This document shows positions 4,735 to 38,750 of a stretch of 64,000 bases of DNA, in pieces. Origin of the DNA: Fibrobacter sp. UWB10. Its GTDB lineage: Bacteria > Fibrobacterota > Fibrobacteria > Fibrobacterales > Fibrobacteraceae. Every line of letters starts with the position of its first letter. Position 1 is the first letter of the stretch. Under the pieces are notes generated by a model. That model saw nothing but the letters and a program-made list of their open reading frames with translations, had not been told where the DNA came from and ran no database searches. The stretch spans positions 682,001-746,000 of the forward strand of contig NZ_FXUE01000002.1 in the NCBI RefSeq assembly GCF_900182935.1, written 5' to 3'. The translations under genes and the position numbers were made by a program.

Positions 4735-5092
4735 TGGAGGTGAGGGGAGTCGAACCCCTGTCCAAAATCACGTCCATGCACGTTCCTACAAGCGTTCCCT
4801 TCGTATTTAAGGTCTCGTCTGATCTACGCCCAAGAAGGTCGGCGCGGACTTTGACCAGCCTAGTGAATCTCGGACTCTAGCCCCAGGCATGCGAGAATCC
4901 TATCCCATATTGCGTCCGGACTTTCACCCCGATGGGAGCGGAATGAGGCCCGGCGTTGCCGTTAATTAGGCAGCGAGTGCGTAGTTTTCGTCAGCACTTA
5001 TTTTTTTTTCAGACTTTTTTACGAGTGCCCTCGTCTGAGACCTCGGCTTGCAACTAACACTTCGGTAACCCTGTCGAAACCAGAGCACCCCC
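4735..5092 (-). ncRNA. ssrA: tmRNA (transfer-messenger RNA), tag ADENYALAA
   Basis: The RNA rescues stalled ribosomes and adds a degradation tag. The 5' end reads GGGGGUGCUCUGGUUUCGAC, the tmRNA signature, and pairs GGGGGUG with CACCUCC at the 3' end to make a 7-bp acceptor stem with discriminator A at 4735. The T arm is the segment with GGGGTTCGACTCCCC. The CCA end is not encoded. The resume codon starts an open frame at 4995 that reads Ala-Asp-Glu-Asn-Tyr-Ala-Leu-Ala-Ala with stop TAA at 4966-4968. Length is 358 nt, normal for one-piece tmRNA. No -10 box is seen directly upstream of 5092; the nearest good one on this strand is TATATT at 5267-5272, beyond a hairpin array, so the primary transcript may carry a long structured leader. 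Confidence 0.95.
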
Positions 5093-5252
5093 GTGCTTCG
5101 CACCGGGGGTGCTCTGGTTTTGACCTGTCGATTAAACGCGACCAAGGGGAGCGTTTAAGCCCTTAAGCTCACTTCGTGAGCGCAAGGCCCCGAAGGGGCG
5201 AGAATAAAGCGGATAGCTTTATTCGAGGCAAACCAAAGCACAATCGGTGCTT
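5077..5252. repeat. Hairpin array overlapping the tmRNA 5' end
   Basis: Consecutive inverted repeats occupy the tmRNA-mfd gap. Arms of 16 bases, 5077-5092 and 5105-5120, are an exact inverted copy of the tmRNA 5' end. Next come TTAAACGC/GCGTTTAA (5132-5139, 5151-5158), GCTCAC-TTC-GTGAGC (5167-5181), GCCCC-GAA-GGGGC (5187-5199), GAATAAAGC/GCTTTATTC (5202-5210, 5216-5224) and AAGCAC/GTGCTT (5236-5252). The order of four of these matches the array beside tRNA-Pro at 38.5 kb. No coding frame fits. Function unknown. Confidence 0.8.
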
Positions 5253-5361: not shown

Positions 5362-8300
5362 ATGGTAGAATCCCTTTCAGAATTCATTACGTTTGCCCGC
5401 AGTGAAACGCTAAACCTCTTCAGCAAGGCTGAAGGGGGCGCGATTCATGTAAACGGGGCGACGGTTCCGGCGGCTGCCATGATGGTGGCGACCCGGTTCC
5501 TTAAAAAGCCGAACCCGATTCTGGTGGTGGCGAAGGACTACAAGAGCGCCGAGAATTGGGTTGAAAATCTGGAAGGGCTTCTAGGCGAAAATTTTGTCCG
5601 CTTTTTCCCGTCGATTAGCTTGAAACCTTACGAAAAGAAGGTGCCGTTCGAAGGGGTTGTCGAAGAACGCCTCAAGTTTTTCCGCGATATAGAAAGCGAA
5701 GACCCGTTTATTACGGTGTGTCCGCTGGATTCGTTCTTGATGCGCCTGCCGGCACCGCATACGGTGATGAAGGATTGCCTTGAACTCAAGGTGGGCGGCG
5801 TTGCCGAACCTTCGTCGTTGCGCCCCTGGTTCTTGGATCACGGTTTCGTGGAACAGCCTGTGGTTTCGGGCGTGGGGGAATTCTCCATTCGCGGCTGCAT
5901 TGTCGACGTAAACTGCCTTCTGTACCCGCATCCGATTCGTATTGAATTCTTTGGCGACGAGATTGAATCGATCCGTAGCTTCGATATTTTCTCGCAACGT
6001 TCCGTAGAGACCATGAAGTCGGTGAAACTTTTCCCGATGGGTGAGTTTACGGTCAAGGAACACGAGGCTGCGTGCTACAACGGCGACCTTTCGGGGCTCT
6101 GGTGGCATCGCGGGCGTTACCAGACGCTGAATTCCAGCTTGCTCGACTATTTGCCGAAGGCCTCGTTGGTATTCGAAGAGCTTTCGCTTTTGTCGGAGAA
6201 TGCGGCGAAGTATTATTTGAACTGCGAGAATACCTTCAGGGAAGTTCGCGAAGTCGATACCGAAGCGGTAGACCCGGCGCATACTTGGTTCAAAATGGGC
6301 GAGCTCTCGCGCCAATTTGTGGGCCGCACCTCGATGGATGTTTCTCGCGTGCAGCTCAATGACGGCAACAGCCACGAACTGAATTGCAAACCGCAAGATT
6401 TCTCTTCGAACGGCACGGATTCGGTCGCCAAGGAAATCGAAGAATTTGCCGCCCGGGGCGGATCCGTTTACGTGGTTGCTCCGACGGCGGGTGCGCTTGG
6501 GCGTATCAAGCAGATGCTTGAAGGCTTGCCGGTCGAAGACTACATTGTCGGCAACATGTCCGAAGGTTTCTGGCTCGAAGACGATGGAATTGCCTTCTTG
6601 ACCGAGACCCGCATTTTCAATCGTCATTCGAATAAGACCCGTAAGCGCAAAATCGCAGGCTCCGTTTCGAGCGCTTTGATGATTGAATCGCTGAACCGTG
6701 GCGATTTCGTTTCGCACGAAGATCATGGCGTGGGCAAGTACTTAGGACTTGTACGCGTGAATGTGAATGGCGGTATGGTCGACTGCGCCTTGCTGGAATA
6801 CGCGGGCGGAGACAAACTCAAGTTCCCTGTGGCGGACTTGCAGAAGATTGAACGCCTCGATACGCAGGAAAATGCTCCAAAGCTTGATCGCCTGGGCGGC
6901 AAGGCTTGGGAAAACCTCAAGGAACGCGTCAAGAAAAAGGTTATTCAGATTGCGCGCGAACTGGTGGAACTTTACGCCAAGCGCGAATTGGTGGAAGGTT
7001 TCGATTTCCCGCCTGATGGCAAACTGCAAAAAGAATTTGAAGACGCTTTTGAATACGATCCGACGCCCGACCAGGTGAAGGCTACCGAAGATATCAAGCG
7101 CGACATGGAATCCCGCCGCCCGATGGACCGCCTGATTTGTGGTGACGTGGGCTTTGGAAAGACAGAAGTTGCCATGCGTGCGGCGTTCAAGTGCGTGGTG
7201 AGCAAAAAACAGGTGGTGCTCCTGGTGCCGACGACGATTCTGGCTGCTCAGCACTACGAAAACTTTATGGACCGCTTCGCAGGCTTTGGCGTGAATATCG
7301 CTCTTGTGAACCGCTACAAGAGCGCTAAGGAAAAGAAGGAAATTTTCAAGCAGGTGAGCGAGGGCAAGGTCGACATTCTCGTCGGTACGCATAGTCTGCT
7401 TTCTGAAAAGAACCAGTTCAAGGATTTGGGCCTTCTAATCATCGACGAAGAACAGAAATTCGGCGTGAAGCAGAAGGAAAAACTGCGTGAAATGCGCCTT
7501 GCTGTCGATACGCTCAGCATGAGTGCAACTCCGATTCCGCGCTCGCTGCACTTGAGCATGACTGGCGTTCGCGACATTTCGCTCATTAATACGCCGCCCA
7601 TGAACCGCTTGCCGGTCGAAACCAAGCTCATGAAGCGCGATGACATGGTGATTAAGCAGGCGATTGAAGACGAATTGGCCCGCGGCGGCCAGGTGTTCAT
7701 TGTGAATGACCGCGTTCAAAGCATTTACGAATTGGCTGACGATATTGAACAGCTTGTGCCTGAAGCGCATATCGGTATTGCCCATGGGCAAATGAACGAC
7801 CGCGACCTTGAAAATGCGATGGAAGCCTTTATCTCCCGCAAGTTCGATATCCTTGTCAGTACGAGCATTATCGAATCGGGCCTGGATGTCCCGAATGCGA
7901 ATACGATCATCATCATGAACGCGCATCATTTTGGCATTAGCCAACTTTACCAGATGCGCGGGCGCGTGGGCCGCAGTAGCGTGCTGGCGAAGGCGCTCTT
8001 GGTGATTCCTGCGAAGAATGAAATTTCGGCGGAATCCATGCGCCGCCTTAAGGCTCTGGAACAGTTTACCGATTTGGGTAGCGGTTATCAGCTGGCCATG
8101 CGCGATTTGGAAATCCGCGGTGCGGGTAACTTGCTCGGCCAGGAACAGCATGGCTTCATCGCCGAAGTGGGCTTTGAAACTTATGTGCGCTTGGTGCGCG
8201 AGGCGGTGGAACAGCTGCGCGGTGGACCGTCCGAAAAGCCGATTCAGCCTCGCGTAGAACTCGGCGTAGATGCTTACTTGCCCGAAGACTACATTCAGGA

Positions 8301-38360: not shown

Positions 38361-38409
38361 TTGAAAAATACTCCTCAAACGGATGTTATTTTATTATATT
38401 TGTCGCACT

Positions 38410-38483
38410 CGGGGTGTAGCTCAGCCTGGTAGAGCGTCTGCTTTGGGAGCAGAATGTCGTCAGTTCGAATCTGGCTACCCCGA
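38410..38483 (+). tRNA. tRNA-Pro (anticodon TGG)
   Basis: A 74-base cloverleaf. Acceptor CGGGGTG pairs with TACCCCG (one G-U), discriminator A; D arm GCTCAGCCTGGTAGAGC; anticodon loop TTTGGGA with TGG; T arm with AGTTCGAATCT. CCA is not encoded. The 3' half, from 38459 on, is repeated in inverted form at 38531-38546. Confidence 0.97.
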
Positions 38484-38522
38484 TACAAAACGCGACCCCT
38501 TCAGGGGGTCGCTTTTTGTATC
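38482..38522 (+). terminator. Terminator after tRNA-Pro
   Basis: GATACAAAA and GCGACCCC on the left pair with GGGGTCGC and TTTTTGTATC on the right around a TTCAG loop. The outer part starts inside the tRNA discriminator region. Confidence 0.88.
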
Positions 38523-38530
38523 GAGCTAAC

Positions 38531-38750
38531 GCCAGATTGAACTGACCAGTTCGACTAAAACCATCGAGAGCGTAGCGAACTCAGATGGTTTTAGGCCTTA
38601 ACTTGAACGAAGTTCAAGTAAGCCCGAAGGGCAAAATACGAAACAAAGTGAGTATTTTGGCAATCTGGTTACCCCGATACAAGATAAGCCCCCTTTTGGG
38701 GGCTTTTCTTGTATCTTAGGTAACCAGATTAGCTTCACCGAAGGTGCAGC
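38531..38750. repeat. Hairpin array with copies of the tRNA-Pro 3' end
   Basis: In order: an inverted copy of the tRNA-Pro T arm (38531-38546); CTAAAACCATC/GATGGTTTTAG (38555-38565, 38584-38594); ACTTGAAC-GAA-GTTCAAGT (38601-38619); GCCC-GAA-GGGC (38622-38632); AAAATAC/GTATTTT (38633-38639, 38652-38658); then a second copy of the tRNA end and terminator (AATCTGGTTACCCCGATACAA from 38662) whose stem AGCCCCC/GGGGGCT differs from the first but still pairs; the inverted GGTAACCAGATT (38719-38730); and CACC-GAA-GGTG (38736-38746). No reading frame. It is 230 bases between tRNA-Pro and the lipoprotein gene. Confidence 0.82.

Follow-up and report, generated by a model that had tools for sequence, protein, structure and literature searches.

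Adjoining a tRNA-Pro(TGG) gene, the rumen bacterium Fibrobacter carries a representative of a family of tiny DNA hairpins that is spread through the genus. The gene lies in a window of 64,000 nucleotides, the whole stretch of DNA analysed. In the naming used here, X denotes the T arm's 5' half, up to and including TTCGA, Y is the remainder (from ATCTGG through the acceptor end), and H stands for the four hairpins h1-h4 together. The order at the locus is X and Y, a terminator hairpin, an inverted Y'X', X again, h1-h4, and a second Y with its own terminator, and the unit at 38468-38661 splits the T loop between TTCGA and ATC (TTCGA^ATC). The features are given below, with their evidence in brackets.

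38409..38484, + strand: intact tRNA-Pro(TGG), with the T loop TTCGA (38464-38468) as insertion point (ARAGORN and Rfam)
38468..38661, + strand: inserted unit of 194 bp, comprising the regenerated tRNA 3' end, terminator, inverted tRNA end, T-stem half and h1-h4 (direct-repeat spacing of 194)
38485..38521, + strand: U1, the new terminator hairpin, GCGACCCC/GGGGTCGC, its arms lengthened by TACAAAA/TTTTGTA (sequence, repeat search, folding)
38522..38546, - strand: Y'X', acceptor end and T arm of the tRNA, copied imperfectly and in inverted orientation (sequence; likewise in relatives)
38547..38554, + strand: X, second direct copy of the T-stem half CAGTTCGA (sequence)
38555..38594, + strand: hairpin h1, tip GA-GCGTAGC-GA (sequence and folding)
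38601..38619, + strand: hairpin h2, ACTTGAAC-GAA-GTTCAAGT (scan for GNA-loop hairpins)
38622..38632, + strand: hairpin h3, GCCC-GAA-GGGC (sequence; aligned units)
38633..38658, + strand: hairpin h4, AAAATACGAAACAAAGTGAGTATTTT (sequence, alignment, folding)
38662..38715, + strand: displaced older tRNA 3' end and older terminator, AGCCCCC/GGGGGCT (repeat search; comparison with relative G036)
38719..38730, - strand: inverted copy of the displaced tRNA end (repeat search)
38733..38749, + strand: remnant hairpin CTTCACC-GAA-GGTGCAG, left from an older unit (G036, G034 and G019 have it intact)

An earlier note on this DNA had described a T arm at 38459-38475 with an inverted copy at 38531-38546, which the sequence and a repeat finder bear out, together with a second direct copy of the tRNA end and terminator from 38662 and a third, inverted copy at 38719. 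Both of the latter were recovered, the direct copy as 41 nt at 80% identity (38468-38508 vs 38662-38702) and the inverted one at 38719-38730; the T-stem half at 38547-38554, the four hairpins at 38555-38658 and the exact split of the T loop go beyond that description. The note had also read the terminator as compensated. Both stem arms do differ, but they belong to two separate terminators, one per unit, and not to one repaired copy. Since the displaced end at 38662 and its AGCCCCC terminator share 97% identity with the intact tRNA end found in G036, the Y beside the tRNA is the new one and the Y at 38662 the old one. Close relatives compared at this spot have no second intact tRNA gene to which the duplicate might belong. 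The X'X pair of relatives forms a perfect palindrome around a GAA loop, CGAACTGAC-GAA-GTCAGTTCGA.

The same arrangement, as the note had claimed, is found at the 5' end of the tmRNA gene, where the two arms (5073-5093 / 5104-5124) are 21 nt each and 95% complementary:

4735..5092, - strand: tmRNA (ARAGORN and Rfam)
5093..5131, + strand: GAA-type turn, then inverted copy of the tmRNA 5' end (5104-5124), then CCTGTCGA (5124-5131) (repeat search, folding)
5132..5229, + strand: H-type hairpins at 5132-5158, 5167-5181, 5187-5199 and 5202-5224 (sequence, hairpin scan, folding)
5230..5241, + strand: what is left of the displaced tmRNA 5' end, a decayed copy (AAACCAAAGCAC, complement strand) (better kept in relative G080)

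The occupant of this tmRNA end is of the H type in G000 and G080, two generations of units being visible in the latter, and of a second type, family B, in G013.

Hairpin families across the genus

Across the genus, more than 150 candidate units of the X-H-Y layout were listed, of which a handful are incomplete or match coding DNA by chance. They occur mainly at tRNA-Ser-CGA, Pro-TGG and Pro-CGG; Gly-CCC, Arg-TCT and Ala-GGC have a few, and each unit carries pieces of its own tRNA. The layout of the tRNA-Pro unit is repeated at tRNA-Gly-GCC in G000, a genome in which a plain terminator stands behind most of the 51 tRNAs, and tRNA-Pro is empty in other relatives (L016, L020, L021, L028). At locus L188 six units stand in tandem, with a terminator hairpin that differs between units and a conserved H; the last terminator there (5926-5965) has the left arm of the first unit and the right arm of the fourth, as if recombined at the hairpin centre. 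A strict pattern (the X'X turn plus h3), applied to the genomes of 84,980 species, returned 62 stretches: 60 in Fibrobacter, one in a short contig labelled Treponema and one in Tardiphaga, which is probably a chance match. The Treponema-labelled contig (L191, 3.7 kb) holds a Fibrobacter-type tRNA-Ser array and is possibly misbinned or the result of a transfer. No mention of such hairpin elements was found in the Fibrobacter literature.

Other disturbed tRNA copies were seen along the way. Extra full copies of tRNA-Pro are interrupted in the T loop at L009 and L015, and copies whose anticodon loop and T loop both contain hairpin elements occur at L008 (reverse complement, 1250-1800), L009 (850-1900) and L366; the interrupted copies of L008, L009 and L366 lie directly upstream of an intact tRNA-Pro. 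Downstream of tRNA-Arg-ACG in G000 (L064), a 28-nt direct copy of the tRNA 3' end lies at 162-189 nt, behind a long hairpin, and is not accompanied by H; it may be an ordinary attachment site.

Family B is defined by the core CGAGYGNCGCG-stem-CATGN'CNGAGC and lies between ordinary genes in 31 genomes, all of them Fibrobacter. The core had no match in the other Fibrobacterota genera searched, nor did its reversed control within the genus. Host sequence (T) stands to the left of the core, its inverted copy (T') directly after it, and often T again in direct orientation after a GNA-loop turn. Arms pairing with the host flank over at least 6 bp were found in 50% of 38 B elements vs 3% with swapped flanks (0/200 shuffles). 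At one site the empty G000 sequence GCGCGCAAATGTAGAAAAAG|TTGTGCC is matched in G003 by an 86-bp insert ending in CAAGATAGAAAAAG (L314 vs L312), in which the direct target copy is exact over 13 bp and an inverted copy lies inside; L362 vs L350 is another such pair. The end of sdhB is filled in G000, G060, G009 and G029 and empty in G003, G034, G036 and G011, the copied T including the stop codon. Insertion of family B elements is therefore proven by filled and empty sites in close relatives.

A third hairpin family (C) has members in the anticodon loops of tRNAs and, in G000, at the end of adk. At L289 (G000:C2, near 660825) the adk 3' end occurs as a tandem repeat, along with an inverted piece and hairpins of this family (CTTTGCTCTCGC...GTCGC...GCTCACGGA). 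An intergenic, repeat-like stretch, CATCCGCGTTAGGGATCGAAGCCCGAAGGGC, lies at L115 1370-1540 (G000:C2:571467), with like wording in L121 and one G029 match, and short intergenic runs (such as GTAGGAAGTAGGAAGTAGG or GACGAGAGACGAGAG) follow the same gene in many Fibrobacter species at the spot of the G003 B element (L321-L330).

Enzymes, carriers and the nature of the hairpins

The H units have end hairpins with matching tips and lie 3' of the fixed pentanucleotide TTCGA (TCGA in tmRNA). End hairpins and insertion 3' of a fixed short target are features of HUH elements (IS200/IS605 type, PATEs). The hairpins could thus be REPIN- or PATE-like transposons that are non-autonomous and depend on a transposase acting in trans, an unrecognised HUH enzyme or another structure-specific one, their inverted copies having arisen later through quasi-palindrome correction, a reading that is judged unlikely. 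Y1_Tnp genes are present in 11 of 37 same-genus genomes, G000 among them, but are missing from the near-complete carriers G003, G029, G009, G013, G028 and G032, and a Y1 transposase was rejected as a conserved agent. Filled sites show direct and inverted target copies, whereas HUH insertion, to our knowledge, makes no copies of its target. No GTAG or CGTC tag is obvious at the hairpin foot in the aligned H units. Reverse transcription was also set aside, as the RVT_1 domain is missing from G000 and the close carriers G003, G009, G019 and G029. Guide-RNA-like targeting was discarded as well: T' varies by site and fits the local host sequence, so that it looks copied and not carried.

Folding of 38485-38735 as single-stranded DNA gives -73.4 kcal/mol vs -26.5 +/- 3.5 for dinucleotide shuffles (z -13.6), with z -12.9 for the other strand and -12.7 as RNA, and the tmRNA side reaches z -10.2; the shuffles rule out a chance origin of the folds on both sides. 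Hairpins with GNA loops are clustered, within the 64-kb window, beside the tRNA-Pro and tmRNA genes. The h3 loop is GNA, with any N, in 133 of 136 units, and C(GAA)G and C(GTA)G are the commonest turns of family B. GNA and GNNA loops are known to give extraordinarily stable, nuclease-resistant DNA mini-hairpins (PMC4686876), and the GNA tips would favour a single-stranded DNA stage over an RNA one.

Double, compensated changes affect 15 of 19 consensus pairs of the stems while the tips are conserved. This pattern, a terminator in every unit and a G080 array that sits between tmRNA and an apparent upstream promoter, where it is probably transcribed, would suit functional RNA elements under selection, with T, T' and T as mutually exclusive hairpins in the manner of an attenuator or terminator cluster, and with compensation as a mark of function. 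Such a role nevertheless appears quite improbable. Presence at the same gene varies among close relatives, T mirrors any local host sequence, stop codons included, and the GNNA loops (GCTA, GCCA) fit DNA and not RNA tetraloop rules. No Rfam family explains the hairpins, the gathering scores of the covariance models being reached by tRNA and tmRNA alone. As multibase compensatory change is also made by template switching (PMC8794818), compensation alone does not prove RNA function.

Template switching acting purely as local mutation at hairpins, with no mobile element involved, has the inverted triplication as its expected footprint (PMC8794818, PMC4689423). It is held to be very improbable as a full account, because the same H tips and B core recur at dozens of unrelated loci, which is impossible by local copying.

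T loops are classic attachment sites, and the tRNA end is regenerated with the unit flanked by direct repeats, so that a remnant of successive tRNA-targeting islands, each brought by a tyrosine integrase and leaving its attachment site, might be imagined. It deserves hardly any credence: a Pfam scan of the nine neighbouring proteins, which are housekeeping or unassigned, gave no integrase; the units (194 bp here, about 190 bp in tandem) contain no ORFs; B insertions place the same device between protein genes away from tRNAs; and neither plasmids nor viral contigs hold the hairpin chain. Phage matches were marginal (28-36 nt), and with no plasmid match and no H pattern in viral contigs a plasmid or phage origin was rejected; 50 family-B matches in viral contigs have no inner stem and were read as chance. 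The idea that an integration site had been used and remade survives in part, as a unit did enter the T loop, with a newly built tRNA end in place of the old one, which was displaced, but there is neither island nor integrase.

A proposed mechanism of insertion

The preferred reading, for which the prospects are about even, is that these are miniature mobile DNA hairpins, confined to Fibrobacter as far as tested, and inserted by two fold-backs using host replication. There is good support for their anatomy and mobility; the mechanism is what we infer from them. A gene-free hairpin chain, on entering a target T, turns it into T - U1 - T' - U2 - T, a formula which, judged from the sequences, may unite the tRNA units and family B. 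In the tRNA units T corresponds to the 3' end of the tRNA, U1 to the terminator hairpin and U2 to the X'X turn plus H; in family B the B hairpin serves as U1 and a short turn with a GNA cap as U2. The H type enters tRNA and tmRNA genes in the T loop, at TCGA^A, or at a site equivalent to it, and the gene end is therefore rebuilt and the old end displaced, repetition giving rise to tandem arrays.

The element would travel as single-stranded or hairpin-capped DNA, and the copies would arise as DNA polymerase makes two U-turns at hairpins by template switching; alternatively, a hairpin-capped duplex of the target may be integrated. Host replication with two U-turns or a capped copy, and not an element-coded enzyme, is favoured because no integrase, RVT_1, consistent Y1_Tnp, or plasmid or phage carrier was found. 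In yeast, a hairpin-capped intermediate leads to inverted triplication with direct-inverted-direct copies (ODIRA, PMC4689423). Direct-inverted-direct copies with inverted-repeat junctions are present at both the tRNA and the family B sites, and the strand-switching repair suggested in the earlier note, which fits them, is likely. The element itself is probably a near-neutral parasite, which would be tolerated since tRNA and tmRNA transcripts have their ends trimmed in any case.

Several observations weigh against insertion through host replication. No moving intermediate, enzyme or excision came to light. Template switching alone does not explain the conserved tips and B cores at unrelated sites, a varying terminator beside a conserved H in one array is not predicted by simple rolling copy, and the inverted copies are often imperfect, including that at 38522-38546. 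Most of the genomes compared are drafts or MAGs. More tentative, and rather unlikely, is the wider proposal of a class of transposase-free mobile DNA in which ultra-stable GNA-capped hairpins turn the host polymerase twice at the target.

Known systems and significance

The Fibrobacter hairpins are best filed with the miniature palindromic mobile elements. REP, REPIN and BIME palindromes (PMC3116915, PMC3733652) are likewise short, palindromic, gene-free, genus-specific and often clustered with alternating orientation; unlike them, the Fibrobacter elements show no dependence on RAYT or Y1, have outer arms copied from the target and enter tRNA T loops specifically. Mitochondrial double-hairpin and repetitive hairpin-forming elements (PMC5910586, PMC2800124) are also tiny mobile hairpins whose mechanism is unknown, but the Fibrobacter elements are bacterial, form chains of four or more hairpins, have GNA tips and copy the target in direct and inverted orientation. 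Template switching and ODIRA (PMC8794818, PMC4689423) share the direct-inverted-direct copies, hairpin turns and multibase compensatory change; their known cases, however, have no conserved cassette, and ODIRA is a kilobase-scale, origin-dependent process of yeast. Islands that integrate at tRNAs through tyrosine integrases resemble the present units in T-loop entry and regeneration of the tRNA end, whereas the Fibrobacter unit is 194 bp long, has no genes or integrase and includes an inverted copy. Downstream of tyrT in E. coli lie 178-bp repeats, each with the tRNA 3' end, and these are alike in being tandem units behind a tRNA that hold a copy of its end. We know of no description of the tyrT repeats as hairpin chains with inverted copies, or as recurring at many tRNAs and tmRNA.

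The way in which the smallest mobile hairpins spread, in bacteria as in organelles, is still an open question, and the target-copy footprint, together with polymorphism among close relatives, makes mechanisms testable here. Compensatory stem changes, which are usually taken as proof of RNA function, may stem from DNA hairpin copying, and these loci offer natural cases. The loci also show repeated entry into a tRNA gene without loss of the gene. If the transposase-free class were real, every insertion would come with a target copy in each orientation, inverted and direct, and would rebuild the gene that it entered, and such transposase-free target-copying would be a new kind of mobile DNA.
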